Notes under the pieces: model-generated
The model's database searches: none
What the model saw: the letters and a program-made list of their open reading frames with translations, nothing else
What the model was told of the DNA's origin: nothing
Shown: positions 2,073-34,223 of the stretch, in pieces
Numbering within the stretch: the first letter of the stretch is position 1
Layout of the letters: every line of letters starts with the position of its first letter
IMG/VR virus record: IMGVR_UViG_3300036766_000211
Coordinates: 1 to 34,223 of that record
Strand: one strand, 5' to 3'
Length of the DNA: 34,223 bases
DNA from: a virus
Made by a program: the position numbers and the translations under genes

Positions 2073-2815
2073 TATACTACATCATCATGTTCAGTTGAAT
2101 TGGATTGAGCAATACTACGAATGAGTTGCTCAGGAAGGAAAGAACCTTGTTCACTAATTTCATTTGCCCTCATAAATAGTTCTTTATTTGTATCATAAAT
2201 AAATTCACTATCTGCAAATTCTATCTTCCATCCATACCATGATCCTTTATTATTTGATTCTGATACAGTAGATAACGTATACATCTTATTAAAAGGTGGC
2301 TGAACTTTACCATCTTTCTTTAATGATGACATTAGACTATTCCACTTCTTTGATTTCTTTAATTGTGTAGATGCCATTGGAATAATAACTTTATCAAATC
2401 CTTCTTCCTGCAAAAGACAAAGATAATAAGCAGTACCCATTAATTCATTACCATTTTCTCTAATTGTTCTTCCATTAATTGGATCAATTGATAAGTCATC
2501 CGGTGCATTTGCTCTTTCATAAGATGCTACAAAACCACCACCTATACCCCTTGGTTTCCACTCTACATAACGAAAGGCATATTTTACTGGAATAGCATTA
2601 ATTTCATTATAAATATTCATTGTTGATTGATTGACAATTTGTGATTGACGACAAGATTCAATATAATTAGGTGTTGTTGGGTTTAAATAAGGTGAATTTG
2701 CTTGACAAATGACAAGGAAGGGAAATGAAAAGTCTTGTCCTTCCATGCCCTCAAAACCCTTGCCTAGAAACTCAGCAGGAAGTTGAGTTTCTTGTTTTGC
2801 TACTTCATTGCTCAT
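2072..2815 (-). CDS. Possible phage ssDNA-binding or recombination protein (247 aa)
   Basis: The ATG at 2815 follows AAAGGAAA at a suitable distance. The 247-residue product contains FPFLVICQANSPYLNP, then IPVKYAFRYVEWKPRGIGGG near residues 75-94, a pattern I have seen in conserved proteins of podophage replication modules. It ends in a short acidic tail, EHDDVV; acidic tails are typical of single-stranded DNA-binding proteins. Its place just upstream of a primase fits a role in replication or recombination. Nothing in the sequence is diagnostic for an OB fold, so the function is tentative. Confidence 0.6.
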   Translation of the reverse strand: MSNEVAKQETQLPAEFLGKGFEGMEGQDFSFPFLVICQANSPYLNPTTPNYIESCRQSQIVNQSTMNIYNEINAIPVKYAFRYVEWKPRGIGGGFVASYERANAPDDLSIDPINGRTIRENGNELMGTAYYLCLLQEEGFDKVIIPMASTQLKKSKKWNSLMSSLKKDGKVQPPFNKMYTLSTVSESNNKGSWYGWKIEFADSEFIYDTNKELFMRANEISEQGSFLPEQLIRSIAQSNSTEHDDVV

Positions 2816-2816
2816 T

Positions 2817-2969
2817 TTACTTTCCTTTCAACAACGAAAAAGATTCTAATACTATAACTCCTAGTGCTATACCATCTTTAAATGAAAAAGAATTATTTAT
2901 GAGTGATGCTAAAATACTAACTGATAGTAGCATAAGTGCAGAAATTGTTAATGCTGTTTTTCCGGTCAT
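2817..2969 (-). CDS. Small membrane protein (50 aa)
   Basis: A 50-residue product whose residues about 5-23 (ALTISALMLLSVSILASLI) form a clear hydrophobic segment, followed by a second weaker one (IALGVIVLESF). The ATG at 2969 overlaps the stop of the preceding gene as ATGA, and an AAAGGGAAAA purine tract lies just upstream. The stop falls one base before the next ATG. It is probably an inner-membrane protein; the role is unknown. Confidence 0.55.
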   Translation of the reverse strand: MTGKTALTISALMLLSVSILASLINNSFSFKDGIALGVIVLESFSLLKGK

Positions 2970-3112
2970 TTGGTCTTTTCCCTTTCTTTCTTCTTATATT
3001 CTCTTACACTGCAAAATTCTATACAAAATATACATAGTTCCAGTAAATTATTATAAAATTTACTACCAAACATACTTTTACAACAAATACATCTTTGTAG
3101 TTTTTCAATCAT
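2966..3112 (-). CDS. Small cysteine-rich protein (48 aa)
   Basis: A 48-residue product starting MIEKLQRCICCKSMFGSKF and continuing CIFCIEFC, with a Lys/Glu-rich C-terminus. Two CxxC pairs suggest a zinc ribbon. It starts a few bases after the stop of the LEPEV-type protein and ends in an ATGA overlap with the next gene, so both junctions support a real gene. Function unknown. Confidence 0.5.
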   Translation of the reverse strand: MIEKLQRCICCKSMFGSKFYNNLLELCIFCIEFCSVREYKKKEREKTK

Positions 3113-3116
3113 TTAT

Positions 3117-3296
3117 CTAAATCTTTACAATATATTGTTGATCTCTATCATTTACATATTTTAAAAATTTTACTAAAACTTCTGGTTCAAAATAAATAGA
3201 ATTAGTTATAACAATTCCATTTTCTGTAGTTATTCTTATACCAAATTCATTTTCTTCTACATATATTCCATCACCTAAGTATCTTTTTTCCATCAT
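3117..3296 (-). CDS. Conserved small phage protein with 'LGDG...TTENG...EPEV' motif (59 aa)
   Basis: The 59-residue product reads RYLGDGIYVEENEFGIRITT, then ENGIVITNSIYFEPEVL and a charged tail. This spacing (YLGDGVY, TTENG, TN.I.LEPEV) matches a small protein widespread in phages and plasmids whose function is not known to me. Two ATGs are adjacent at 3296 and 3293, downstream of a GGGAAAAG ribosome binding site; I took the first. It is the gene before the Cys-rich peptide and follows the coiled-coil protein gene. Confidence 0.7.
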   Translation of the reverse strand: MMEKRYLGDGIYVEENEFGIRITTENGIVITNSIYFEPEVLVKFLKYVNDRDQQYIVKI

Positions 3297-3305
3297 TTCT
3301 TTTCC

Positions 3306-3794
3306 CTATTCCCTAATCTTTGCAATTCGGCCTTCATAATGTGGAAATAAATCAATTGGTAATTTAAGTCCTGCTTCTACACATTCTCTATACCACGCCT
3401 CTAGTGTTTTCCAATGTACTGTTGATTTAGATTCATAGCCGATGGCAAATTCTTTAAGGAAACTTAACAACAATTCTGCATTATCACCAGGATATATCTC
3501 TACTTTTTCTTTAATTAAGCCACCAAAACCAGATTCTCTTAACCAACTAAAAAATCCGTCAGTTTGTTCTGGCAATCGTGCATAAAAAAATGGCTTAACT
3601 GTTATCACTTCTGATGATCTTAGTGTAACTGAAGTGACCCCTAATTCAGACATGGTGTCAGGTAGGACTGTTTCTTCTAGATTCTTCTTTTGTTTCTTAA
3701 TGTCTTTCAATTCTTTTTCTAACTCATCAATCCGTGAAACCTTAGACTTTAATTGTATAACTAAATCCTCTATTACTTTAACCAATGGGTCCAT
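3306..3794 (-). CDS. Conserved phage coiled-coil protein (162 aa)
   Basis: Residues about 5-45 are a strong coiled coil (heptads of Leu/Ile among Lys and Glu). They are followed by LPDTMSELGVTSVTL and a compact C-terminal domain with FSWLRESGFGGLI, STVHWKTLEAWYRE and GLKLPIDLF. This order (coiled coil, 'P..M.ELG', 'WLRE.G', 'TL.A..RE....G..LP..LF') is that of a conserved phage protein usually left as hypothetical in replication regions. The ATG at 3794 lies inside the end of the nuclease gene (22-base overlap), which implies translational coupling. A function cannot be given. Confidence 0.7.
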   Translation of the reverse strand: MDPLVKVIEDLVIQLKSKVSRIDELEKELKDIKKQKKNLEETVLPDTMSELGVTSVTLRSSEVITVKPFFYARLPEQTDGFFSWLRESGFGGLIKEKVEIYPGDNAELLLSFLKEFAIGYESKSTVHWKTLEAWYRECVEAGLKLPIDLFPHYEGRIAKIRE

Positions 3795-4210
3795 AATCCT
3801 AGTTCCAATAATTCAGAATAACTCAGAGTTTCTTTTTCATAAATATGTTCAATAATTTTACTTAATTTAATATCTGTTTGGTGCCAATTTTGCGATATAT
3901 CATATAAAACATAAACACTTCCACTAAACTCTAAATTATAGACACGGCCACCAGCCATTCGTCTTTGTGTTTGCCAACTAATTTGCATTGGAGATAATTG
4001 ATAATTATTTACTTTACACTCAATCCAAAATTCATGACCATGTTCGGTGTGGCTCCAATGCTCGCAATCACCCGCAATACATATATTGATATCTGGAATA
4101 CCTGGTTCAATTAGGGATTCTAATCTAGTAAAGTGTAACTTTTTGTTATATTTATTACATATAATCTTAAATTCATTATGTATTTCTGTGTAGAGTTTAG
4201 TCTCTGTCAT
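3773..4210 (-). CDS. VRR-NUC / PD-(D/E)XK-type nuclease (145 aa)
   Basis: Nuclease core motifs are visible in order: an N-terminal Glu helix, RLESLIEPGIPDINICI near residues 29-45 (the Asp of PGIPD is the first metal ligand), FWIECKVNNYQLSPMQ near 61-76 (the E-x-K pair) and a following Gln/Trp helix with GGRVY. This is the VRR-NUC or Holliday-junction-resolvase-like arrangement, and the length suits a stand-alone enzyme. Likely role is structure-specific cleavage of DNA during replication or before packaging. The ATG at 4210 overlaps the stop of an 11-codon ORF. Which branch of the PD-(D/E)XK superfamily it belongs to cannot be decided by eye. Confidence 0.75.
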   Translation of the reverse strand: MTETKLYTEIHNEFKIICNKYNKKLHFTRLESLIEPGIPDINICIAGDCEHWSHTEHGHEFWIECKVNNYQLSPMQISWQTQRRMAGGRVYNLEFSGSVYVLYDISQNWHQTDIKLSKIIEHIYEKETLSYSELLELGLWTHWLK

Positions 4211-7127: not shown

Positions 7128-7189
7128 CAGACTTGGAAACAGTAGTCACAAAAGCAATTGTGGCGAATAGACGAAAGGACAAGGTGTAG
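7124..7189 (+). CDS. Possible 21-residue peptide
   Basis: MTDLETVVTKAIVANRRKDK plus V, starting in an ATGA overlap with the zinc-ribbon stop and ending five bases before the DGQHR start. It may serve translational coupling or be chance. Confidence 0.25.
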   Translation: MTDLETVVTKAIVANRRKDKV

Positions 7190-7193
7190 TAAA

Positions 7194-8492
7194 ATGGCTG
7201 GACAGCAACAGACAGAGACAGAAAGACAGAAAGCAATTGCTGCTTTCAAGGAAAAAAACAAAGGCAAGCAGCAAGGTAATACTACGGTACACGGCGAGGT
7301 TAAGCAATCCGCTGCAACCGTGGCAGAGCAAGAAGAAGAGAAACGAATCATTGAACCAAAAACCTTTCCGGTCATTCAGTACAAGCAAGGCAAATTGGAT
7401 TGTGCAATCCTGTCAATGACAATGGCAGATATTCACGACTACACTTGCTTTGCTCGTGACTTGTATGATGTGCAAACTGTCACGGACGAGAAGGGCAAGA
7501 TCAAGAATCTACCAGTAGATCCAGAATACACATGGCAAAGGGATTTAACAAAGGGCAGATTAGTTCAGATTCGAGACTATCTACTTAATGATCTTCATTT
7601 CTTTCCCGCGATCGTCTGCGTTGTGTCTAACGATGCAACGTCAATTGATGCAAATGGTTTGCGGATTGGCTTTGACAATGATGGCAATCCGGGTCTGGCA
7701 GTGTTGGACGGCCAACATCGCAAGGCAGGGATTGATACCCTGCTTGCTGTTGACGGCATGGGACCAGATAGTGCCTTCGGTAAAGAGCAGGTATCAGTCA
7801 TCGTTATCACGTCGGCAATGGACGTTGACACGAAACAGCAGATTTTTGCCGACGTGAATCGAACGGCAAAGGTGGTTAGCAAGGCACTTAACATTCTCTT
7901 TGACCACCGTGACCCTTTTGCGGTCATTGCTCACAACGTGGCTAAGCAACTTGATGGACTGGTTGACCTGCAACGTACCGCACCTAAGGGTTCATCGAGT
8001 CAGGCACTGTCGCTGAGCAACATTTACAACCTGGCGATTAATTATGGTGGTGTGAAGAAAAAGGGCAGCAAGGAATTTGAGGCACACCACTCGGCAGAAT
8101 TAGTTGAGGCAGTTGTGTTGTCAATCTGTAATGCTCTGCCACAATTAGATGCCTTCCGTGTCGGGGCAAAGTATGAAGACGTTCGTCAGCAGCACATCGT
8201 GTACAGTAGTACATTGATGCAAGCAATTGGCCTTGCGGCAAAACAAGTAACTCGTGCCGTTGGCCGAACGATGAATGCAAACAAGGAAGTGACGGCAATT
8301 GACCCGCGTCCAATCCTTGATCTTCTGCCCAAACTGATTGCTCGAACAAATTGGCATTATAACAATCCGGTGTGGTCAGAAATCATTGAGGGGGAAGAAG
8401 GCAAGTGGAAGGTCAAGACCCGCAGTGGTGACGTGAGCAAAGCACAAGTAGTGCTCGAAGAAATGTGGGGAGCAATCAAGGATGAAAACTAA
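7194..8492 (+). CDS. DGQHR-domain protein, DndB/DpdB-like (432 aa)
   Basis: The diagnostic motif LAVLDGQHRKAGIDTLL lies near residues 166-182, followed by VIVITSAMDVDTKQQIF and ADVNRTAKVVSKALNILFDH near 215-240, as in DndB. Family knowledge: DndB acts in phosphorothioate DNA modification loci, mainly as a regulator, and a related DGQHR protein, DpdB, works with DpdA in 7-deazaguanine DNA modification. No dndC/D/E or dpdA is visible here, so the gene is an orphan in this window. The start is ATG at 7194 (AAGGT upstream); a TTG 36 bases earlier has no ribosome binding site. A strong hairpin follows. Possible roles are protection of phage DNA, interference with host modification, or ParB-like NTPase/DNA binding; the family call is firm and the role is not. 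Confidence 0.8.
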   Translation: MAGQQQTETERQKAIAAFKEKNKGKQQGNTTVHGEVKQSAATVAEQEEEKRIIEPKTFPVIQYKQGKLDCAILSMTMADIHDYTCFARDLYDVQTVTDEKGKIKNLPVDPEYTWQRDLTKGRLVQIRDYLLNDLHFFPAIVCVVSNDATSIDANGLRIGFDNDGNPGLAVLDGQHRKAGIDTLLAVDGMGPDSAFGKEQVSVIVITSAMDVDTKQQIFADVNRTAKVVSKALNILFDHRDPFAVIAHNVAKQLDGLVDLQRTAPKGSSSQALSLSNIYNLAINYGGVKKKGSKEFEAHHSAELVEAVVLSICNALPQLDAFRVGAKYEDVRQQHIVYSSTLMQAIGLAAKQVTRAVGRTMNANKEVTAIDPRPILDLLPKLIARTNWHYNNPVWSEIIEGEEGKWKVKTRSGDVSKAQVVLEEMWGAIKDEN

Positions 8493-8652: not shown

Positions 8653-9108
8653 ATGATGCCTCACGAGAATTTTTGGTTTCAGGTTGTACTCGGATTGCAT
8701 GGTGCCGACCTGCACCGTGCCGATCTGCGTGGTGCCAACTTACATGATGCCAACCTGTATGATGCCGATCTGCGTGGTGCTAATCTGCGTGATGCCGATC
8801 TGTGTGGTGCTAACCTGTGTGGTGCTAACCTGTGTGGTGCTAATCTGCGTGGTGCTGACCTGTGTGGTGCTAATCTGCGTGGTGCTGACCTGTGTGGTGC
8901 TCTAAACATTTTTTCGCTGGGCAATCCTGATGGATGGTTTGCCTTTGCTTGGCTAAGAGACAAACAGCTATCAATCCGCGTAGGGTGTCAAGAGAAACGT
9001 CTTGACGAGGCAAGGATCTACTGGTCAAACAAACCCAACCGTAGAGAAGTCTTGGCAGCGGTTGAGTATGCCTCAACAGTTGCTACTATCCGCGACTGGC
9101 CGGTCTAG
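8653..9108 (+). CDS. Pentapeptide-repeat protein with C-terminal phage domain (151 aa)
   Basis: Residues about 16-80 are thirteen tandem A(D/N)LxG-type pentapeptides, such as [10 protein letters not shown] and CGANL, followed by an imperfect one. These would form a right-handed quadrilateral beta-helix; several consecutive repeats place Cys at the same position, giving a cysteine ladder. Residues 90-151 ([20 protein letters not shown], then LDEARIYW and a REVLAAVEY helix) resemble a C-terminal domain common in phage proteins. ATG at 8653 or 8656 follows GGGAGCAAGG. The Leu and Gly codons (CTG, GGT) differ from the TTA-rich late genes. Some pentapeptide proteins bind DNA gyrase as DNA mimics, but this short one is not strongly acidic, so that role is open. 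Confidence 0.8.
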
Positions 9109-9136
9109 CAGACGTTAGCCAACACGCCAAACAAAC

Positions 9137-9167
9137 AAGGTCGGCCATAGGGTCGGCCTTTTTGTTT
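9137..9167 (+). terminator. Rho-independent terminator of the cassette
   Basis: AAGGTCGGCC-ATAG-GGTCGGCCTT forms a 10-bp stem (two G-U pairs) ending in TTTTTGTTT. It lies 28 bases after the pentapeptide gene and closes the 6.1-9.1 kb transcription unit. Confidence 0.85.
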
Positions 9168-9247
9168 ACCTAAAATGTCAAGTCTGGATTAGACAGATTG
9201 TCTTTAGCATTTGTCTACAAATGAGTTTGCTTAAATAATTGGCACTG

Positions 9248-9297
9248 TGGCTAGAAACGTATACAGGGTATAGAGGTGTGCTTGCATACCGTCTACA
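9248..9297. repeat. 50-bp direct repeat, copy 1
   Basis: Nearly identical to 9337-9386, differing at a few positions near its start and in the GAGGTGTG segment. It ends in ATACCGTCTACA, which contains the GTCTAC core, and carries ATACAGGGTAT inside. Confidence 0.75.
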
Positions 9298-9324
9298 CTT
9301 GTTTTGATACCTTGTAGACGGTAT
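9286..9324. repeat. Inverted repeat ATACCGTCTACA / TGTAGACGGTAT
   Basis: Perfect 12-bp arms with a 15-base centre, built from the end of direct repeat copy 1 and an inverted copy. It fits a site for a dimeric DNA-binding protein; it could also extrude as a cruciform. Confidence 0.65.
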
Positions 9325-9336
9325 TGATTAACAGAA

Positions 9337-9386
9337 TGGCTAGAAAGGCATACAGGGTATAGGTGTGTGCTTGCATACCGTCTACA
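9337..9386. repeat. 50-bp direct repeat, copy 2
   Basis: Second copy of the unit at 9248-9297. Its final GTCTACA pairs with TGTAGAC at 9392-9398, giving a second, shorter inverted repeat. Confidence 0.75.
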
Positions 9387-9540
9387 GGCATTGTAGACAG
9401 AAAAACCCTTATGCACTATGCATGTTTTTTTTTTGTATTGAAAAAATTGGCCCATGTCTACACTCAGTTTGAAAATTTTTTGAGAGATTTTGAAAATAGC
9501 AGATTTTTTTCAGGCCCGAAGTGATAAAAAAAACTCACAG

Positions 9541-9565
9541 TGTAGACTGTAGACAATGTAGACAA
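9541..9565. repeat. Three tandem TGTAGAC iterons
   Basis: TGTAGAC, TGTAGACAA and TGTAGACAA in direct succession. The last two plus AAGTATG form a 24-bp block that recurs exactly at 9895-9918. Confidence 0.65.
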
Positions 9566-9813
9566 AGTATGGTGGATATGCCTAAATTGAATTGTAAAGC
9601 TCTTAGTGTTACTTAAAACAACTAGAAAACTTGTTTGATATAGGAGTATTTTTCTTGATTTACAAATATTGTGAAGTTTTACAAAATTTGTCTTTATGCT
9701 GTGGATGGTGATTTCTGGTGAAAATGGTCTAGTGGCATAGTGTTGTTGGATGCCGTGACAGGGATATTTGACACTTGTCTACAATTTCTCAATTGTAGGA
9801 AAATGGGGCTAAG

Positions 9814-9822
9814 TTATCCACA
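9814..9822 (+). promoter_or_regulatory. DnaA box
   Basis: TTATCCACA, the perfect 9-mer consensus for DnaA binding, lies between iteron sites at 9775 and 9858. It is the only exact copy I found in this region, so a dedicated initiator may act with host DnaA. Confidence 0.5.
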
Positions 9823-9894
9823 GCGTGGAATATGGAAGGCTATTTACATGTTGATAATTGTCTACAAAAACCCTGTTAATAGCTGTTAGGTAAG

Positions 9895-9912
9895 TGTAGA
9901 CAATGTAGACAA
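9895..9912. repeat. Two tandem TGTAGACAA iterons
   Basis: An exact copy of the tandem pair at 9548-9565, with the same AAGTATG following. Neighbouring inverted single copies are at 9858-9867 and 9942-9950. Confidence 0.65.
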
Positions 9913-10366
9913 AGTATGAAATGTGGGTCATATTTGAGCAGTTGTCTACACTTTCTTATATTTAAGAATGAAAATAATCGGTTTCATGCCAAGTTGTGCC
10001 ACCTATATTCTCAGAAGTGACAGAGTTAATCTATGCCAAGTGCTACTTAATCCGGGCATTTTTTAACTCGTGTCATCCACCAAGTGCCAAGCGTTACTCC
10101 ACCATATTCTCAGTAGACTTGACACTCATCAAGCAAGTCTAAGCTATTTGCTAAATGTCAACTAGCTTTACTCCTAGATCATTTGTCTACATGTCAAATA
10201 GATAGTTGCGCTACTGAATAAGTATATGACAACCAACATGGAAACTTGACAAATTGTAGACAAATGGTGACTGTCCTGGTCAGATGTCAGCACCGCGCAG
10301 GTTAGCACTCGGCTGAAGATTTGGTGTGGTTCAGTGTCTGGGGATTTTTTGTCCTTAGCGGCATTT

Positions 10367-10412
10367 TGAGAATGAATATCATCTTCATTCTCATATCCTT
10401 AGTTAGGATATG
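10367..10412. other. Two adjacent strong hairpins
   Basis: TGAGAATGAA/TTCATTCTCA (10-bp arms, 7-base loop) is followed, with two bases shared, by CATATCCT/AGGATATG (8-bp arms, 5-base loop). No T tract follows. The pair may be a cruciform, a bidirectional transcription barrier or part of the replication region. Confidence 0.5.
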
Positions 10413-10704
10413 GCTTCGCCTTATCTTCGCATTTAATCCATGACACGGGGTATGTGTTCACTGCCAGTTGACCATTGTCACAAGCCGTGGACTAACTGGC
10501 AAAGTGGCTAAGTGCTTGATTTCATTGGACTTTTGGCCCTTGTCAAGTTTGATTAGACAAATAACAATCCTTATTTGACACTTGACACCTAGACCCCAAG
10601 ATCTATTTGTCAACTATCCCCCCCAGACCCCCCGGACCTTTGCCTCTGGCCACTCAAAAAACGAGAATTCAAATTCCACAATCCAAAATCTAGAATCCTA
10701 GTTA

Positions 10705-10741
10705 CACAAAAAGCAAAGTGACAATTCACAAAAAGCAAAGT
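10705..10741. repeat. Short direct repeat upstream of the late promoter
   Basis: CACAAAAAGCAAAGT occurs at 10705-10719 and 10727-10741, 22 bases apart (about two helical turns), followed by a doubled AAGTACCTT. The spacing suits two regulator molecules on one DNA face about 125 bp upstream of the late promoter. Confidence 0.45.
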
Positions 10742-10864
10742 ACCTTTTTAAGTACCTTCTTTTATACACAAAACATAGTTGCTAAATGCCAAATGTCATT
10801 CCTAAAATTACACCAAACCATAAAACAGAAACCAAATTAACATATACTAACAAAAAGAAATAGC

Positions 10865-10893
10865 TTGACACAAAGCCGCTTTAATGATATGAT
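10865..10893 (+). promoter_or_regulatory. Consensus sigma-70 promoter for the late operon
   Basis: TTGACA at 10865-10870, a 17-base spacer and TATGAT at 10888-10893. This is an almost perfect housekeeping promoter, about 45 bases ahead of the first late ATG, with no intervening gene. It is the only obvious promoter before the 23-kb rightward block. Confidence 0.75.
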
Positions 10894-10938
10894 CAAAATA
10901 CAACTAACACCTATTAACAGGTGGAAAGGAAAAAGGAC

Positions 10939-11200: not shown

Positions 11201-11282
11201 GCCGGAATGGTGGAACTGGCAGACACACGGGACTTAAAATCCTGCGGAGTAATCCATACGAGTTCAAGTCTCGTTTCCGGTA
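11201..11282 (+). tRNA. tRNA-Leu(UAA)
   Basis: A complete class II cloverleaf. The acceptor stem is GCCGGAA/TTCCGGT with discriminator A. The anticodon stem is CGGGA/TCCTG around CTTAAAA (anticodon TAA at 11235-11237). There is a GGA/TCC variable arm, and T stem ACGAG/CTCGT with loop TTCAAGT. The 3' CCA is not encoded. It decodes UUA, the dominant Leu codon of the late genes, so it probably offsets a host poor in this tRNA. Confidence 0.95.
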
Positions 11283-24726: not shown

Positions 24727-27567
24727 ATGGGTAATCCGGTAGATCAGCATTATCTTGATCGTATGATAAAAAAAGATAAAGTATTTCAGAATATTCATAA
24801 AATTAATCAAATGGAGCCAGGAAAACGATCTAAATATCTTAAACAGCATAATTTAACTGAAGATTTGTTAAGACAGTCTGTTGAAGGTAAAGAACCGGCA
24901 CTAGAACAGTCATTTATTTCTAGTCCTTGGTTTGCTGCCATGATACCTATTATATTATCTGCTCCAATACCGATGATTTCGTCTATGTTATTTGGCAAGG
25001 GTGCAGGTGCATTAGCAGGATTAGCAGGTGCTGGTCCAATTACACAAGAAGTTGCAGAATTTTTAGGTAATTTAATTTCTGTTGGTTCTGGTAATCCATC
25101 TGCTGAAGCACAGATATTAAAAAAGTATGGTGCTGAAGAAGGTCCAAAGATACTTGCTAAATTTCAAGAGATAATGGCAGGTAATACTGAAGAAAAAATA
25201 GGTATTTTAGAAAAAATTACTAATCCTGAAGTTGCCTCTACTGTAGAAAAAACTGGAGAAGCAGTTGCAAAACTATCTTCAGAAATCGAGTCTAAAATTG
25301 CTGGTTTATTTACAGGATTTGATGATTCCGCTTTACGTACAGCAAAAGGATTTGTTTCTAAATCTATGATGGGAGATTTACAACTTGCTCAGAAAACTAG
25401 AGCGAATGATTTAAGTAAATTACTAACTATGTATAAAGAACATCCAGAAGCACAAGAACATATTGCAGAATTAATTTCTGATGAATTTGTCAAATATATG
25501 GAATTAATGACACAAAGAGTTGCTTCTGGTGTAGATAAAAATGGTAAAACTCTCTATAAGGTTGTTAAACAAGAATGGACAGATGAATCATTAGATTTGC
25601 TAAAGAAATACATTATGAAAAATGATGCTATTCCGGTGTTAGACAATTTAGTCAATGGCTCAACTAGTGGTATTGCTGGAATTTTAGGTAATGAAAAAGG
25701 TGCAGTAGATATGCGTCTCTTAACTCTAGCCAAGTCTTTATTATCTACTAAAAATATTTATAAGGCAGAAGCAAATGCTTTACTGATGGATCCAAGTATT
25801 TCAGGAAGAAAAGCACTTACAGATTTAATGTATTTACCATTTCAACGTCTTACTCAGTCAATTGCTCTTGCTGCTGAACACAGATCACTTGATGCAGGAC
25901 AAATGTTATTTGTTTCTGCTATGAGAGCATTAAAAGAATCATTTCCAGAAGCAGTAAGATTAGCAAAAGCTACATTTAAATCAGGTATGCCAGAATTTGA
26001 GGTTCAATTAGAAAAAGAATTAGAGACTGTAGGTAAAATGCACCCAGAAGTATCTAAAAAAGTAAAACAAGCATTAACCTATGGTTTAGATGCTTATGAT
26101 AAAACGCCTATTGGTTTATCACAAAATTATTTAGCTTCTGCAATGACATTTGGTAGCAGAAGTATTAGATCAGCAGATCAATTAGCTAAAACTATGGCTT
26201 ATAGATCAAGTTTATTTATGTTTGCTTATCATCATGCTTTACAGGAAGTAGAGGGTTTACAATTAAAAGGAATGGAGAGATTTCAAATAGCAGAAGAATT
26301 AGCTAAAGAATATATGGCTAATCCTCCTGACTGGTTGTTAAGTGCTCAAGTTGAAGATATGTTTAAATCTACTTTTACTGATTCAAATGCTGTGATTAAA
26401 GCATTTAATGCAGCAGCAATTCATGTTCCACAATTAAGAATTATGTTTCCATTTTTTAATACACCTATTAACTTGTATAGACATGGATTAGAAATGACAC
26501 CAGCTGGTTTAGGAATGTCTTTATTAGATGAACCTGGTTTAGAGAGAAATACTACTTTAGTAAAATCCGTATTAGGTTCTATTTTTGCTATCTATATTGC
26601 ACATGAAGTGCAACAAGGAAATATTACAGGAGGTCATCAACAGAATCCAAATAATAATTATAAAATTCATGGTTGGGGTTATAGACATTTGGGTCCATTT
26701 GGAACTTATTTAGCATTAATTGCTGATGCTGCTCAATATTACACAAATGCTAAACCACAAGATCAAAATGTATTAGCAGATGCTATTGGTAGAGCATCAC
26801 TTCAGTCTATAAATCATGCTCCTATGATGAATGAGATTACTAATTTTGTTAAAGCATATACTTCTGTCGGCGATAAAGGTGGATGGAAAATATTTGAAAA
26901 TTACATGGGTCAAAAAGCATCTGAATTTATTCCAGCACCAGTCAAAATTGCTGCTGATGTACTTGATCCTGTGTATCGTGAAACACAATCAGCATTAGAT
27001 GTTGTTAAAAGTAATCTTCCTTATTACTCAAAAACATTACCTCCATATAGGCATTGGGATGGTACACCACAATATTTACCACCTGGTGTAAATGCAAATG
27101 ATACTCCGCCAGATGTATTTAGTATATTAATGAATAAACTTAGTCCTATAGGTACAGGACATATAGAGGAAATGGATAATGTGGATAAAACACTAGGTCA
27201 ATTAGGTATTAAATTTAATAGACCACCAGATCATATTAAAATTGCTGGTCAAATTATACCAATTGATCCTAATTTAAGAGACTTGTGGTCAACTACATCT
27301 GGAGAAGGACAAAGAGAAGCATTTGATAGTTTAATAAATAGTGATAATTTTCAAAACTTTCCAGAACATCAAACAGATATGATAAAGGTAACACATGCCC
27401 AATTTTATTTAAAAGGTAAAGCAGCAGTTCAACAATATATTACCAACATAGCATCTAATCCAGAAGATTTGGGTAAACCTTATATTCCTGGTGAAACCAA
27501 TCCAACACCAGAAACTAGCGAACCTACACAATCAGAACCTAAATTAGAATTGGGAGGAGGACAGTAG
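24727..27567 (+). CDS. Internal virion protein D-like large ejection protein (946 aa)
   Basis: A large helical protein in the gp16 position; the ATG directly follows the preceding stop. Residues about 68-110 (WFAAMIPIILSAPIPMISSM, then LFGKGAGALAGLAG) are hydrophobic and Gly/Ala-rich, suited to membrane insertion; a second hydrophobic stretch is near residue 620 (SVLGSIFAIYIAHEV). Unlike T7 gp16 (1318 aa) I see no lytic transglycosylase motif at the N-terminus, and the protein is shorter. It ends in a Pro/Thr/Glu-rich tail. Expected role: ejected with DNA to form the envelope channel. Confidence 0.75.
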   Translation: MGNPVDQHYLDRMIKKDKVFQNIHKINQMEPGKRSKYLKQHNLTEDLLRQSVEGKEPALEQSFISSPWFAAMIPIILSAPIPMISSMLFGKGAGALAGLAGAGPITQEVAEFLGNLISVGSGNPSAEAQILKKYGAEEGPKILAKFQEIMAGNTEEKIGILEKITNPEVASTVEKTGEAVAKLSSEIESKIAGLFTGFDDSALRTAKGFVSKSMMGDLQLAQKTRANDLSKLLTMYKEHPEAQEHIAELISDEFVKYMELMTQRVASGVDKNGKTLYKVVKQEWTDESLDLLKKYIMKNDAIPVLDNLVNGSTSGIAGILGNEKGAVDMRLLTLAKSLLSTKNIYKAEANALLMDPSISGRKALTDLMYLPFQRLTQSIALAAEHRSLDAGQMLFVSAMRALKESFPEAVRLAKATFKSGMPEFEVQLEKELETVGKMHPEVSKKVKQALTYGLDAYDKTPIGLSQNYLASAMTFGSRSIRSADQLAKTMAYRSSLFMFAYHHALQEVEGLQLKGMERFQIAEELAKEYMANPPDWLLSAQVEDMFKSTFTDSNAVIKAFNAAAIHVPQLRIMFPFFNTPINLYRHGLEMTPAGLGMSLLDEPGLERNTTLVKSVLGSIFAIYIAHEVQQGNITGGHQQNPNNNYKIHGWGYRHLGPFGTYLALIADAAQYYTNAKPQDQNVLADAIGRASLQSINHAPMMNEITNFVKAYTSVGDKGGWKIFENYMGQKASEFIPAPVKIAADVLDPVYRETQSALDVVKSNLPYYSKTLPPYRHWDGTPQYLPPGVNANDTPPDVFSILMNKLSPIGTGHIEEMDNVDKTLGQLGIKFNRPPDHIKIAGQIIPIDPNLRDLWSTTSGEGQREAFDSLINSDNFQNFPEHQTDMIKVTHAQFYLKGKAAVQQYITNIASNPEDLGKPYIPGETNPTPETSEPTQSEPKLELGGGQ

Positions 27568-28115
27568 TGCCTGTTTCTACACTACCATCTGTAATTGCAT
27601 TTTCAACTAATGGCACTCAACAGGATTTTACTTTTCCTTATTATGTTGTAAAAAATACAGATATTTCAATTTATAATTATATTAATGCTGGAAATATTTT
27701 TCATTATGCTTTAGGAACAGATTTTACTATAACAACTACTCCTGATGGTTATGGTGCTTTTCCATATGGTTTAATTGTTCATTTTGGCACTGCACCGGCA
27801 AGTAGTGGTACTTTAGCTATTATAAGGAAAACACAATTAACTCAATTAACTCAATATGTAAATAATGATCCATTTCCAGCAGATACAATCAATCATGCTT
27901 TAGATAAACTTGCACTTGCTATTCAAGATATGTCACCTACATTTAATGATACTGCTTTTAAAGGTGCTCTTTTTGCACCACCAACAACAGGACAACATTA
28001 TCAGGGTTCCTGGTATAAAAATTTACTTCCTGTAGTTGGTGGCTATTACGGTTGGATTTGTACTGCTTCAGGAACTCCTGGCACTTGGCACCCATTTGGT
28101 TTGATTGTGACATAA
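27567..28115 (+). CDS. Tail fibre adaptor: T7 gp17 N-terminal domain only (182 aa)
   Basis: The start is GTG at 27567, overlapping the previous TAG, with GGAGGAGGACA upstream. Residues 1-115 match the T7-type fibre N-terminal domain (TNGTQQDFTFPYYVVKNTDI, TDFTITTT, ADTINHALDKLALAIQD), which docks a fibre or spike to the tail. The end (YQGSWYKNLLPVVGGYYGWI, then GTPGTWHPFGLI) is a cap motif often seen in tailspike proteins. No receptor-binding body follows in the chain, so it is probably an adaptor onto which a separately encoded fibre binds. Confidence 0.8.
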   Translation: MPVSTLPSVIAFSTNGTQQDFTFPYYVVKNTDISIYNYINAGNIFHYALGTDFTITTTPDGYGAFPYGLIVHFGTAPASSGTLAIIRKTQLTQLTQYVNNDPFPADTINHALDKLALAIQDMSPTFNDTAFKGALFAPPTTGQHYQGSWYKNLLPVVGGYYGWICTASGTPGTWHPFGLIVT

Positions 28116-28477
28116 TGTCAAAAGAACAAGATTATTCCGGAGGTAATAATTATATTCGTATGTTAGTACAGGGTGGTTCTTTACTTGTACTAATTTTAGT
28201 TCTTTATGGTGGATATGATTTAGGAAAAATGGCATTAAATATGATTGAACCTTATTTAGAAAGAGTTACTGCTTCTGTAGAAAAATTAAATACCACTATG
28301 GTTATGCACTCAACAGAAACAAGAGAAAATCAAATAAGATTAATGGATAGTAATATTGAAGATTCAAAACAAAGAGACAAATTGATAGATATTCAATCAG
28401 GTATTTATGATATACTTAAAAGTAGTGAAGTAGTTATTCATAAATTTGAAGAAAAACCACTAAAACACCATGATTAA
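28115..28477 (+). CDS. Holin-like or spanin-like membrane protein (120 aa)
   Basis: ATG at 28115 shares a base with the previous stop (TAATG). Residues about 17-36 (LVQGGSLLVLILVLYGGYDL) form one transmembrane helix, followed by a long polar coiled-coil-like region to the end (YLERVTASVEKLNTTM, then IRLMDSNIEDSKQRDK). It overlaps the endolysin-like gene by eight bases. One helix plus a coiled coil suits an inner-membrane spanin or an XhlA-like holin. Its role in lysis is inferred from the neighbour. Confidence 0.6.
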   Translation: MSKEQDYSGGNNYIRMLVQGGSLLVLILVLYGGYDLGKMALNMIEPYLERVTASVEKLNTTMVMHSTETRENQIRLMDSNIEDSKQRDKLIDIQSGIYDILKSSEVVIHKFEEKPLKHHD

Positions 28478-28865
28478 TTGGCTTGAAGAAAGACCTAAGA
28501 TTTTAGAGCAATCTTTACTTCATGGTGTTGATCCATTTTTAATAGCAGCTATTAGGCATTCAGAAAATGGTGGTCCTGGTAAAGAATTTGGTATTTTAAG
28601 TAAAGATGCACCAGATTATGATAAGCAATTACAAGTTTGTTGTGCTACTATACGAAATAAGTTTATTGAATCTGCAATCATATTTATTAATAAATCCTAT
28701 TCTTATGGTATTCGTGCTTGCTATACTCAATATTTTATTGAACGATTACAAAGAACTTATTGTCCAGTTGGAGTAAATAATGATCTTACAGGACTTAACA
28801 AAAGTTGGTTGGCAAATGTAACAGAAGCCTACGGAAAATTCTGTAGGCTAGGGAGGATTGAATGA
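28470..28865 (+). CDS. Endolysin: lysozyme/transglycosylase-like (131 aa)
   Basis: The product contains GVDPFLIAAIRHSENGGPGK and EFGIL near residues 19-43, with a candidate catalytic Glu in SENGG or KEFG; then a helix with YDKQLQVCCATIRN and the end TYCPVGVNNDLTGLNKSWLA. The pattern 'G.DP.LI.AIR..E.G..GKEFGI...Y..QL....TIR....RYCP.G..ND..GLN..W' is familiar from short phage muralytic enzymes of the SLT/lysozyme-like fold. No signal peptide, so it would need the holin. Substrate: peptidoglycan glycan strands. Confidence 0.7.
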   Translation: MINWLEERPKILEQSLLHGVDPFLIAAIRHSENGGPGKEFGILSKDAPDYDKQLQVCCATIRNKFIESAIIFINKSYSYGIRACYTQYFIERLQRTYCPVGVNNDLTGLNKSWLANVTEAYGKFCRLGRIE

Positions 28866-29287
28866 GAAAATTGCTTGTAATTTTATGCTTATTATTTGCA
28901 TCTATCGCACCATCTTTTGCTGCTGAAGCAGTACCTATTGTGCATAGTACATCATATGAACATGACCATGTTCTTACTACAGATCCAAGTAAAGCACTAT
29001 ATTGGCTAACTGTCACTTGGAATACTCAGGCATTGCGTTGGTTAATTATTTATGATGCAACTACAGTTCCTGGCGATGGTGCTCTTTCAACTTCACTTGT
29101 ACTTTATTGTGCAGTTGCTTCATTAGCAACCGATCCTACACAGTCAAGCAAGTCATTTGATTGGACTAATCATCCACTTCTACATGGATTAAATGGCATG
29201 GTGGTAGTTATTTCTACTTCTGCATCTGGTTGTACTGCAAAAACAGCAGATGGAAATAATGATTGGATTACTGCTGGGGTTAATTAG
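28862..29287 (+). CDS. Exported protein of unknown function (141 aa)
   Basis: ATG at 28862 overlaps the endolysin stop (ATGA), with GGGAGG upstream. Residues 1-20 form a textbook Sec signal peptide (MRKLLVILCLLFASIAPSFA, cleavage after SFA). The mature part is beta-rich, with two Cys (near residues 83 and 122) that could form a disulfide after export. It is Thr/Ser-rich and contains WLTVTWNTQALRWLIIYDAT and GLNGMVVVISTSA. It may be periplasmic or surface-exposed. Unusual for a phage late gene; the family is not recognised. Confidence 0.7.
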   Translation: MRKLLVILCLLFASIAPSFAAEAVPIVHSTSYEHDHVLTTDPSKALYWLTVTWNTQALRWLIIYDATTVPGDGALSTSLVLYCAVASLATDPTQSSKSFDWTNHPLLHGLNGMVVVISTSASGCTAKTADGNNDWITAGVN

Positions 29288-29537
29288 TCTATTATTTGTT
29301 GATGTTGCTTATGGACAAATAACTAATTGTAGTGTTGGTCCAATGCGGTTTCCTTCAGATATGAATGAATGTAATAATTTATCACTTGCTTGTTCTATAA
29401 ATGCCAATTGTCCAGCAGGATTTAAATGTGGTCCAGCTTATACACCAACAGCGGTTGCATGTGATGTAGATGGTGATTGTTCTAGTGGATTTCATTGTAG
29501 TAAAACATTAACACCTACACCAACGCCAAAATTGTAG
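29250..29537 (+). CDS. Exported small cysteine-rich protein (95 aa)
   Basis: Start at ATG 29250 or 29259 (three codons later); neither has a good ribosome binding site, and the frame overlaps the preceding gene by 38 bases. The hydrophobic start (MIGLLLGLISLLFVDVAYG) is a signal peptide. The mature part has eight Cys in C-x(n)-C pairs, including CDVDGDCSSGFHC near residues 71-83, and ends in a TPTPTP tail. The same CxVDGDC motif recurs in the large neighbour. Disulfide-bonded and exported by inference; no function known. Confidence 0.6.
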   Translation: MEIMIGLLLGLISLLFVDVAYGQITNCSVGPMRFPSDMNECNNLSLACSINANCPAGFKCGPAYTPTAVACDVDGDCSSGFHCSKTLTPTPTPKL

Positions 29538-29550
29538 GAGGAGGAGGAGC

Positions 29551-32500
29551 ATGAGGAAACTAATTAGTATTTTTATTTTATTATTTGCTTATCCAGCATT
29601 TGCTGATTATGTATCAACTGTTGTTGCTGATGGACCAAAAGGTTACTGGCGATTAAATGAAGCAAATGGTAATTTTGCAGATTCTTCTGGCAATGCTCAT
29701 ACTGCAACACCGAATTCAACAGTAGTTTATAGTCAAACAGCACTTATAAACAATCCAGCAGATACATCCATTACTGGTACAATTGATGTTATGGGGGCAC
29801 AGTGTCCTACAATTCAAGTTGCTTCTAGTACAGACTTTGATATTACTTCAAACTTAACAATGGAATTATGGGAAAAAGCCGGTGGTTTTGATCATGGTTG
29901 GTTTAGTAGATATAGTGGAGGTAGTGCATTTTATTGGATTCAGACATCATCTGGAGTTCCTCGAATGGAATTACGGATGGCAGGAAATACAGTATCTGGT
30001 TGTGGTGGTGCAGATTCAGGACTTCCGTCTGTTAATGATAACGTAATTCATCATATTATTGGTACGTATGATGGTGCCAATATGAAACTCTATATTGATG
30101 GTGTATTACAAATTACTTGTGCTCAAACAGGAAATCTTTATGATTCATCTGGTGGTCTTATTACTATTGATAGTATTGGATGTGGTGCATCAGATCCTTT
30201 TCAAAGTACAGAAGGTGAAGTTGCCATCTATAATACTGCATTAACAGCAGCACAGGTTTTAAATCACTATAATATTGGTTTGTCTATTGCTACACCAACA
30301 TCAACTAATACACCTGCATCAAATACAAATACTCCTACTAAAACAGCAACTACTACTTATACTTTTACTCCTACAATCACAAATACTCCTACTAGAACAA
30401 ATACTGGTTCTACCTCAACACCAACAAGAACATTTACAAATACAGCAACACCTGCTGCAACACCTACTAATGTTGGTGGATTTCCTTGTAATCTTGGTGA
30501 TGGACATCCTAAGATGTGTTATCAAGGTACGCAGCAGGGTAAACTTTGTACTGTAGATGGTGATTGTGCTGGTAGTGGAACTTGTCATATAGGGGGTAAT
30601 ATTAATAATGAGGAGCAATGTCATGCTGAATTATCTGTTCCATTAGGAGGACTTCCAGGTGATACTATAGCAGATGAAGTTGTAGGACTATGTTCTACAG
30701 AATCAAATTTACATGCAACACAAAATGGTACATTTGTATCTAACTGGTACGGTGTTGGTTTTGTTAGTACACTTGCCTATGATTATGTAAATGATCAATT
30801 ATTTGAGGGAAATTCTTCTGTAGTTCATGGATGGACTAATACAAATTATCATACAATTCAAGGACCGTCCACAGTAGCAGTAGGACAATCTGATTTATAT
30901 TCTGAAGGATGGTCTCGTTTAACTGGTGATCAAAGTACAGGTATTTGGAATTCTGGTACTTTAACTAACTATGTTTTTACTGCACAAGTAAATGGAATTG
31001 CTTTTGGTCCATCTGGTGATATGTGGGTATCTGACTATTCCCGAGTAATGAAATTTGATCCACCTATTACTACTGGTAAAGCTGCATCATTAGTTTTATG
31101 TTCAACATCGTTTGGTCCACTAGTAGTTAATCCAGGTAATTCTGGTAAATGTAGTCCTACTGGAGTAGCAGTAGATTCATCTGGTCAAGTTGCTGTTGCT
31201 GATGGTAGTAGAATTCTTCTATATCAGACTCCTCCTATTGTCAATGGTCAATTTGCAGATAAAGTTTTAGGACAAACAGATTTTAGTTCAAATGCTTGTA
31301 ATAGGGGTTCAAGTATAGGACAAAATACCTTATGTACAGTTTCTAGTTTAGCTTTTGATTCTAATGGAAATCTTTATGTGGCCGATTCAGGGAATAATAG
31401 AGTACTAATCTATCAAAAAGGTAGTGGTTTTATAAATGGACAAAATGCTGCTATGGTATTAGGTCAAACTAATTTTACTTCATCTGTTGTTGGTTTAACA
31501 CAATCTCAAGTTAATACAGTTGTAGCAGTTACTGTAGATAATTCAGGAAATGTAGCTGTAGTAGATAGAATTAATAGACGTATTTTAACATATGATAATC
31601 CACTAGGTTCATTACCAAGTATAACTATATCAGCAACACATGTTGTTGGACAAGCAAATTTTACATCTAATATAGAAGGCGAAGGAACATCCAATATGGC
31701 TTTTCCTAGTGGAGTTGCAATTAAATCATCTGCGTCTGCACCAGGATTAATCTTATTTATTACAGAAGGTAATTTAAATGGTTCAAGAATTTTAGAGTAC
31801 ACCTGGCCAATTGCTACCAATGGTCCGGCTGCTATGGTTGTTTTAGGACAACCCGATTTTCTTACAAGATTTAGATCCATGGCAACAACAAATTCATTTG
31901 AAATTGCTGGTGGTGCTGGTGGAATTGCTTTTACAAGTACAGGTGGTGTATGGTTAGCTGATACAGGACATAATAGAATTCTTGGTTGGGCAGATAAAAA
32001 TGCTGCACATAGTGGAGCAAATGCAGATTATGTATTAGGTCAGGCACATTCTGCTCAAGGTACCGCTGAATCTGCAAATGAACAAAGAGCTAATAGGGGT
32101 TTATTAACTCCATCATCAACTAGTTTATTTTTACCAGAACAGATGAGTATTGATGCTTCAGATAATCTTTATGTTGCAGATAATAGAAATGATCGAGTTA
32201 TAATGTATCCAAATCCAGCTGAAGGAACTGCTGCAACTAAAGTATTTGGTCAAACTTCACTAACTGCTCATACTTTATCTTTTCCTCCAACAGCAACTTC
32301 ATTATTTAATCCAACATTAGCATATATTGATTCTGATGGTGCTCTTTGGATTGCCGATACTGGTGCAAGTAGAGTTACATATTATCCTACTCCACAGAGC
32401 AGTTCAACAGCAACAATTGTTATTGGACAATCTAATTTAAATGCCGGTGGTAATGGCTGTAGTTCACCAACTGCAACTAATCTTTGTAATCCTTATGGAA

Positions 32501-33252
32501 TTTATCACGATATACCAAATAAACGGTTATTTATTTCAGATGAGCAATCTGCTGGAACTGGTAGAATTTTGGTGTATAACTATTCTTCATTAGCATCAGG
32601 TATGTCAGCAAGTTTTGCTCTTGGTGTGCCATCAGGAGCAAATAATTTAACTAGTTTTTCCACCTGTCCTAAAACACAGTCAGAAGGCTGTGGAAATGGT
32701 AGTTTAGATATTCATCCAATCTCTGGTAATTTATTTGTTGTTGCTTCTCCTGGTGTAATAGAATATCCTGCACCTTTTTCAGCAGGATCATTACCTAGTA
32801 GACTATTTGGTAGTAATACACCAACTTCTTGGGGATTGCAGGGTCTTGGTGGTGGATATATTAATTGTCAATGGAATACTGGAAATGGTGATCAATTAAA
32901 ATTTGCACCAGATAAGCATATGTGGGTATTTGATAATGGTTCTTTTCAAGTAAGTAGAGTTTTAATTGTTCTTGATCCAGATATTACGGCACCTACTCCT
33001 ACAAATACACCTAGTGTTGCTACACCTACACCAACTAAGACAGCAACTGCTACAGTTACTTGGACACAACAGCCTACGAATACACCACAAACTCCTAGTG
33101 CTACACCTACTGGTCCTATTCCTACAGCTACAATAACATTTACTCCAATAAATACTGCTATTCCTACACCAACACCAACAATTCCAGCATGTATTTTACC
33201 ACCAACAGCTACACCAATTAAAGCTGTATGTATTCCAACACAAACACCATAA
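29551..33252 (+). CDS. Exported LamG - Thr/Pro linker - NHL propeller protein (1233 aa)
   Basis: ATG at 29551 follows GGAGGAGGAGG. Signal peptide 1-18 ([18 protein letters not shown]). Residues 20-245 are a LamG/concanavalin-like jelly roll ([46 protein letters not shown]). Residues 247-308 are a TPT-rich linker. Residues 309-380 are Cys-rich, with [13 protein letters not shown] at 333-345. About 400-1140 hold roughly nine NHL-type repeats ([29 protein letters not shown]), each followed by a 'VLGQTDF' tag, which would give one or more beta-propellers. Residues 1141-1233 are again Thr/Pro-rich. LamG and NHL domains bind glycans and proteins. Possible roles: host-surface attachment, exclusion of other phages, or virion fibre. 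Not placed in a known phage family. Confidence 0.75.
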
Positions 33253-33809
33253 AAAGAATTTTGTTTATTTTATTAATTCCATCCATTATCTATGCACAAA
33301 ATCAATCACCAGCACAAGTTACTATTCAGGGTAATACCGTAACTGGTGAATTTGATCCTAGATTTTTAGAGTCTACACCAGGTGCAGTAGAATTTGTGGC
33401 ACCTATTCCATCACAAAGATATATGCCTCAAATGTTTACTGTTGCATTAGGAGCAATTCCTAATACACCAACAGCATTATCTAACAATTCACCTACACCT
33501 ACACCACAACCAACATCTACTCCTCTAACAATTCAAGCAAATCCAACGCCATGTGAAGAAGTTGCTTGCTGTTCATTACCTACAAATCTTTCAGCAATTT
33601 TAGTATTTACTCAGGGTGGTGGTGGAGCATTTCCATTATTTCAAAGTGGTTGTACTGGCTGGATGCCATGTCGTAGTCATCCTACACCAACTGCTAAACC
33701 AGCAGGTACTGCTGCTGCAACACCGGATAAAGATAGATATTGTGATCATATTAAAATTGGTGGAACTCCAGGATCAACTGGTGATATTATAGCATGTGAG
33801 ACACGATGA
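33228..33809 (+). CDS. Exported Thr/Pro-linker protein with Cys-rich C-terminus (193 aa)
   Basis: The ATG at 33228 lies 25 bases inside the end of the LamG/NHL gene. The N-terminus ([20 protein letters not shown], then IYA) is a signal peptide. A folded segment about 25-80 ([20 protein letters not shown]) is followed by a [10 protein letters not shown] linker and a C-terminal part with [10 protein letters not shown], a GGGGAF run and several more Cys. The architecture (export signal, Thr/Pro linker, disulfide-rich end) mirrors its neighbours. The stop overlaps the next gene as ATGA. No family recognised. Confidence 0.6.
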
Positions 33810-34223
33810 AAAAATTTGTATTATATGTTTTTCTAGCTATTTGTTTACCTTTAGTTTTCATGGCACTAGTAGTAACAGCAAGTGATGGTCCAAATATAGG
33901 TTCTTCAATAAGAACATTAGGTACACTAGTAACTGTTACTGGCAGTGGAACATTAACTCATACATTTCCATCTACTTCACAAACATTGGTTGGTAGAACA
34001 TCAACGGATACTTTAACAAATAAAACACTAACCGGAGCGGTATTAACTGCTGGTACTACAACAGTTGCTCCACTAACAGTAGCTTCTGGTACAAACTTAA
34101 CTACAGCAGCAGCTGGTGCTTTTGGTGAATATGATGGAGTGGCATTTTATTCATCTCCCCTGGCAAGTGCTAGGGGAGTATCTCCAAGTGTCATGTATTC
34201 AATTGTACCTGCTGCTGATTTTT
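33806..34223 (+). CDS. Tail-fibre-like protein with N-terminal hydrophobic signal, cut by right edge
   Basis: ATG at 33806 overlaps the previous stop; 139 codons are open to the window end. The start ([20 protein letters not shown]) is a signal peptide or anchor. What follows (TLVGRTSTDTLTNKTLTGAV, PLTVASGTNLTTAAAGAFG, EYDGVAFYSS) is the repeat language of trimeric phage tail-fibre shafts ('TDTLTNKTLT', 'L..GTNLTT...GA.EYDG...F'). Fibres are normally assembled in the cytoplasm and lack export signals, so this combination is odd. The C-terminal receptor-binding part lies outside the window. Confidence 0.65.
   Translation, partial: MKKFVLYVFLAICLPLVFMALVVTASDGPNIGSSIRTLGTLVTVTGSGTLTHTFPSTSQTLVGRTSTDTLTNKTLTGAVLTAGTTTVAPLTVASGTNLTTAAAGAFGEYDGVAFYSSPLASARGVSPSVMYSIVPAADF

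Follow-up and report, generated by a model that had tools for sequence, protein, structure and literature searches.

Consecutive late genes with predicted Sec signals behind a stand-alone tail fibre anchor in a T7-like phage fragment

At the end of its late operon, a T7-like podovirus fragment encodes five consecutive proteins with export-type N termini, at least two of which contain tail-fibre or sugar-binding modules, in a region headed by a stand-alone tail fibre anchor. The layout is shared by dozens of uncultured phages, which hints at an undescribed means of producing or using host-recognition parts. We propose that the block may specify the cell-binding, distal portion of a split tail fibre system, in which a cytoplasmic anchor would be joined by Sec-exported, disulphide-bonded adhesins that meet the particles at lysis; we put the probability of this reading at roughly 0.45.

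The five-gene block and its export signals

The window, by which we mean the whole stretch of DNA analysed, is a linear virus record of 34,223 bases (IMG/VR class). It is assigned to the HTVC010P-type, T7-like podoviruses by the ordered presence of terminase, portal (PF12236; Head-tail_con), major capsid protein (MCP), tail tubular A and B, and internal virion proteins. A protease/scaffold-like gene lies between portal and MCP, and a short fibre gene follows the internal virion proteins. The nearest isolates by portal and tail tube B are HTVC010P-type podoviruses. The region of interest contains the following genes.

27567 to 28115, plus strand: stand-alone fibre anchor, 182 aa, with a T7 gp17-type N-terminal domain and a short C-terminal GWICTASGTPGTW tip; signal peptide absent
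about 28118 to 28477 (start codon uncertain), plus strand: holin-like protein, single transmembrane (TM) segment by hydropathy
28470 to 28865, plus strand: lysin-like open reading frame (ORF), by motif resemblance only
28862 to 29287, plus strand: E1, small exported-type protein, 141 aa, with a clear Sec signal, MRKLLVILCLLFASIAPSFA followed by AEA
29250 to 29537, plus strand: E2, Cys-rich protein, 95 aa, with a hydrophobic N terminus (weak signal) and a Thr/Pro tail
29551 to 33252, plus strand: E3, exported-type protein, 1233 aa, with a clear signal
33228 to 33809, plus strand: E4, exported-type protein, 193 aa, with a clear signal, Thr/Pro linkers and several Cys
33806 to 34223, plus strand: E5, exported-type fibre/virion-type protein with a clear signal, cut by the contig end

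Signal peptides were called by rules for n-region charge, h-region hydropathy and an AxA-type site. A sequence-only reading of the window had claimed that every gene from 28862 onward starts with a Sec-type signal or a hydrophobic N terminus, and rule-based scoring bore this out, clearly for four of the five. Clear cleavable signals are called for E1, E3, E4 and E5, and E2 is hydrophobic but weak: its N terminus, read from 29250 or from the ATG at 29259, is MIGLLLGLISLLFVDVAYG followed by QI, with an AxG-type site and no positive n-region. A stricter rule, with 1.1% false positives on shuffled N termini, passes four of the five block genes versus 0 of 35 elsewhere in the window (Fisher p = 5.5e-5). 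Neither a lipobox nor a twin-arginine motif was seen in the block proteins, which places the signals in the SPase-I/Sec class and ruled out lipoproteins and Tat export. Wrong start codons were ruled out by the strong Shine-Dalgarno sequences ahead of E1 (28862) and E3 (29551), which are placed precisely for the starts that include the signals; the genes at 29250, 33228 and 33806 each overlap the preceding one. The block proteins are very probably exported.

In E3, the signal is followed by a LamG_3 lectin domain (about residues 89 to 236; E = 1.5e-14), a Thr/Pro linker, a Cys segment, NHL repeats (E = 5.5e-24; best at 594 to 621) and a Thr/Pro C terminus. In E5, the signal is followed by TLTNKTL and then by a module of the form GTTTVAPLTVASGTNLTTA..EYDGVAFYSSP..RGVSPS. 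This protein has weak matches to virion structural PHROGs. MW202711 has the module too, in a 264-aa protein without a signal whose gene lies among tail genes. E5 alone has a fibre-type module within the window block; fibre or beta-helix spike bodies are found in the relatives G001, G021, L190 and L242. E2 has 8 Cys in 70 mature residues and a Lustrin_cystein match below the cut-off, and E4 has no family match in PHROG and domain family searches. E1 resembles signal-bearing proteins in the L201 and L256 blocks described below (pairwise E = 5e-7 for L201); a phage tblastn search gave no match, alignment with a 230-aa protein of G002 was not convincing, and its structure model (pLDDT 40) is too poor for use. 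The earlier description of the block as structural-looking therefore suits E3, by its LamG_3 and NHL domains, and E5, by weak PHROG matches, and suits the other three less well. The Thr/Pro linkers and cysteine-rich stretches that it had pointed out are present in E2, E3 and E4.

Cysteine content sets the exported-type proteins apart. Across the window group, G025 and MW202444, the median is 2.2% in mature exported-type proteins versus 0.31% in signal-less late-module proteins (about 7-fold; p = 2e-8), and 18 of 23 mature exported-type proteins have even Cys counts (p = 0.005); the sequences are partly related, which makes both p-values optimistic. Cysteine content of this kind fits folding in an oxidising compartment, for which the sequence-only reading had argued from Cys-rich motifs.

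The anchor and signal-bearing genes in relatives

The protein encoded at 27567 to 28115 matches PHROG tail families (phrog_1640, E = 1.3e-16). Its structure model is confident for residues 6 to 91, and Foldseek matches it to the T7 gp17 N terminus (7boz/7ey9), Kp9 (7y1c) and phiM1 (8vbx). Homologous stubs are found in G021, G022, G002 and G001, that is, across the whole close group. In the window, two lysis-like genes separate the anchor from the block. The block had been placed beyond the lysis genes, and a holin-like single-TM ORF and a motif-only lysin-like ORF do precede it; neither has a convincing lysis family match in PHROG and domain family searches, and the holin-like protein is a putative lysis factor.

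All four near relatives covering the region, gathered by capsid searches (MCP identity 54 to 71%), carry two to four signal-bearing proteins in the late or tail module, including collagen/pectate-lyase tailspikes. G001 (71%) has three spike-type ones: a 936-aa beta-helix with a Thr/Pro linker, a 779-aa protein and a 1064-aa protein that combines collagen and PF12708 pectate-lyase domains. It also encodes a full 585-aa fibre. In G021 (63%), a 181-aa anchor precedes four signal-bearing proteins of 694, 485, 391 and 141 aa, and in G022 (54%), a 188-aa anchor precedes two with long Thr/Pro linkers. G002 (54%) has three in its late module: a pair upstream of the terminase, of which one includes a hydrolase-like part, and a third located between the capsid and tail genes. 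The protein that follows its anchor lacks a signal. In the fragment L151 (67%), a single signal-bearing protein is encoded between the two tail tube genes, and the more distant G025 encodes fibre-like and beta-helix-like proteins with signals. Conservation between relatives is low. Searching directly with E3, with tail tube B by itself or with the 936-aa spike of G001 gave no useful relatives, and a capsid scan of genome contigs returned mostly pelagiphage-like sequences or distant prophages without signal runs. Small signal-bearing or signal-like proteins also lie between the major capsid and tail tube genes, the usual site of head decoration genes, in L006 (9071-9577), L102 (6820-7281) and L153 (11536-12018). 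L006, a prophage-like contig with an integrase-like gene, additionally encodes an exported-type protein (815-2797) with a long Thr/Pro repeat and an apparent alpha/beta-hydrolase (GFSEGS motif).

The 694-aa spike of G021 is collinear with the body of gp27, a pectin-lyase-like spike (phrog_32881) of Burkholderia phage BcepMigl (31%, E = 6e-16), which has no signal and is encoded among virion genes. Where gp27 has its own N-terminal region, the G021 protein has a signal and a four-Cys domain (C.DC.....C..GG.GA plus a later Cys). The sequence-only reading had counted signal-less relatives as evidence against export, and this objection applies in part, through two signal-less homologues, this spike and the E5 module of MW202711, but the close relatives do carry signals. 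The signal-less homologues therefore point to virion-type modules that gained signals rather than to a false signal call.

The four-Cys domain is also present in an exported-type protein of G022 and at the C terminus of a signal-bearing, 1253-aa fibre-like protein of MW202444, a complete, integrase-bearing phage. A DNA-pattern scan for this domain yielded 78 viral contigs. Among four-Cys proteins with a complete 5' end, 56 of 67 passed the signal rule; for the remaining ORFs of these contigs, the count was 46 of 468 (p = 2e-36). Inspection, which judged the rule-based calls for L217 and L235 false and about seven rule failures (such as L233, L240 and L247) true, brought the count to about 61 of 66 with signals. 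The signal-less exceptions (L207, L217/L235, L248 and L265) resemble ordinary fibres or spikes in which the domain is also present. Because the contigs were chosen by a Cys domain taken from exported spikes, these counts speak to recurrence, not to overall frequency.

In the 36 cases scanned, the gene immediately upstream of the four-Cys protein encodes a P2-type anchor or mini-fibre about 16 times, a T7-type anchor three times and a product resembling tail protein I five times. In P2-type tail modules of many contigs, a separate anchor/mini-fibre gene stands immediately before a signal-bearing fibre; these P2-type anchors are mini-fibres of about 190 aa with a C-terminal tip. At L204:4384-5034 and L206:2312-2962, the P2-type fibre anchor domain itself has a signal peptide. 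When 398 cellular genomes were searched for the P2-type anchor, the single match was weak and had no signal-bearing neighbour. L201 and L256 repeat the window layout, with a bare T7-type anchor of 129 to 130 aa followed by five or six consecutive signal-bearing proteins, and the anchor of L195 is likewise bare (129 to 130 aa). L195, L201, L229, L251 and L256 share genes with one another and count as one lineage, not five independent cases. In L201, the exported-type protein at 2802-4115 combines a Thr/Pro linker and a bacterial Ig domain with a C terminus that may be lytic-transglycosylase-like, a motif impression only. Late export of a set of structural-looking proteins, which the sequence-only reading had suggested for the window, is well supported by sequence and extends to a whole group of phages, and the search for the same block in metagenomic phages that it had recommended recovered genes of the same kind in near relatives and the layout itself in L201 and L256.

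Attachment to particles and alternative readings

The split-fibre reading draws together the signals in four of five block genes versus 0 of 35 elsewhere, the spikes of the relatives, the BcepMigl collinearity, L201 and L256, the P2-type modules, the four-Cys census, the cysteines and the anchor fold. The block proteins have no N-terminal virion anchor in the same polypeptide; they begin with a signal instead, and the anchor is a separate gene. On this reading, the anchor half would be made in the cytoplasm and dock on the tail like the T7 gp17 N terminus, and the adhesin, lectin and spike halves would be separate products with a Sec signal where ordinary fibres and spikes bear the virion anchor. 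Exported late in infection, the distal proteins would lose their signals by cleavage and take up their fold in an extracytoplasmic setting that lets cysteines pair in disulphides. They would most likely meet finished particles at cell lysis and then attach to the anchor. In phage P22, tailspikes are known to attach in vitro to particles that are otherwise complete.

Other features fit this reading less well. E3, with LamG and NHL domains, is as similar to secreted proteins of bacteria as to fibres, E1, E2 and E4 have no assigned function, and no docking domain common to all exported-type proteins was found. The two lysis-like genes that intervene between anchor and block in the window, and the G002 protein that lacks a signal although it follows the anchor, also count against it. 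The tip of the window anchor itself, the 585-aa fibre of G001 and the tips of the P2-type mini-fibres imply that the exported proteins are not always the sole possible receptor binders.

The proteins could also be exported and never enter virions, acting instead as lectins and depolymerases, displayed on the infected cell or released from it, whose effect would be to prevent re-adsorption, to loosen the matrix or to provide decoys. We regard this as a serious, if somewhat doubtful, possibility. The signals are clear, the exported-type proteins lack an anchor domain, and their domain variety (LamG, NHL, the hydrolase-like part in G002, the Ig domain in L201) fits an arsenal of secreted surface proteins; the Thr/Pro linkers, too, resemble those of secreted bacterial proteins. 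However, in two tail lineages the genes directly follow, and often overlap, a stand-alone fibre anchor, homologues without signals belong to virion gene clusters, and the bare anchors of L201, L195 and L256 leave the virion without an obvious receptor binder. Because the block stands directly behind a stand-alone anchor in many relatives, we favour the virion connection, which the sequence-only reading had listed last, and narrowly prefer attachment to virions after lysis over action on cells.

The hydrophobic N termini might alternatively stay uncleaved and serve assembly, for instance as a helix that plugs into the anchor or at a membrane-associated assembly site. Tail parts of tailed phages assemble in the cytoplasm, which agrees with such a role, as does the missing positive n-region of E2. 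Canonical n-h-c architecture and AxA-type sites in many otherwise unrelated proteins, together with the Cys enrichment and even counts of the mature parts, make it unlikely. Less likely still, the genes are host secreted-protein genes carried as cargo (morons) with no fibre-related role: the LamG/NHL/Thr-Pro architecture of E3 and the low conservation between relatives would suit cargo, but tailspike, collagen and fibre-repeat proteins occupy the corresponding places in relatives, and E5 is a phage virion-type module.

Extended beyond the window, the split-fibre reading would describe a widespread assembly route: in several lineages of tailed phages, receptor-binding fibres and spikes may quite possibly pass through Sec, fold with disulphides outside the cell's cytoplasm and dock on a cytoplasmic anchor after lysis, an idea that we advance tentatively.

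Known systems and further observations

SP6/K1-5/KP32-like podoviruses offer the closest parallel in layout, with a short T7-gp17-type N-terminal anchor and separately encoded spikes, comparable to the stub anchors in the window, G021, G022, L201 and L256. In those split systems of adapter and tailspike, to which we take the Kp9 tail structure matched by the anchor to belong, the spikes are cytoplasmic from synthesis to attachment, carry docking domains and have no signal peptides. The distal proteins described here, in contrast, have Sec signals, many cysteines and no recognised docking domain. Exported morons and superinfection-exclusion proteins (T5 Llp, P1 Sim and similar) likewise use host Sec export, but they are small single lipoproteins or periplasmic factors, whereas the block lacks a lipobox and comprises five late-module genes in a row whose products include large, multidomain, fibre-type proteins of up to 1233 aa. 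Sec-exported and SAR endolysins are also late, signal-bearing proteins of the lysis region. No muralytic domain was found in E1 to E5, in which the recognised domain types are lectin, propeller and fibre, and endolysins were rejected as the identity of the block proteins.

HTVC010P-type pelagiphages such as Baldr (OQ414636) share the head-tail gene order. Upstream of its terminase, Baldr encodes one protein with a signal, a single acidic protein rather than a run, and the isolates HTVC010P and Skadi gave TM/holin-like calls only. Pelagiphage-type late modules end with one or two signal-bearing proteins per genome at L002:1475-2851, L089:12148-13575, L090:156-1406 and L092:6611-7733, one of which has an NLL.NG-like start and a very acidic middle. 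These are possible marine counterparts of the block.

Textbook assembly of tailed phages is cytoplasmic until lysis. Recurrent fibre-type proteins with export signals would mean one of two things: receptor-binding parts mature outside the cytoplasm and join the particle after lysis, or infected cells are decorated or armed with fibre-derived adhesins. Either would alter what genomes are taken to say about host range, superinfection and biofilm attack. Many such genes carry only a hypothetical label, and a screen for receptor-binding proteins that demands an anchor domain could overlook them. Separate spikes on split anchors are already known, as are exported morons; runs of Sec-signal fibre-type proteins behind a stand-alone anchor we could not find described. 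A search of the open-access literature on signal peptides in fibres, spikes and virion proteins returned lysis proteins and no account of such runs. Signal peptide counts in Bacteroides phages have been given, unexplained (PMC5723332).

Elsewhere in the window, leftward early genes at 1155-1823, 2072-2815 and 3306-3794 encode a TOTE-type archaeo-eukaryotic primase domain and relatives of cyanophage Pam3 gp34 and gp33. A DndB-family (DNA-sulphur-modification-associated) gene at 7158-8492 and a pentapeptide-repeat gene at 8653-9108 form an island with a G+C content of 0.47 to 0.50 versus about 0.33, probably a recent acquisition. Between this island and the late operon, some 1.8 kb (9110-10920) is nearly free of long ORFs and is followed by a tRNA-Leu (taa) at 11201-11282, the sole Rfam match.
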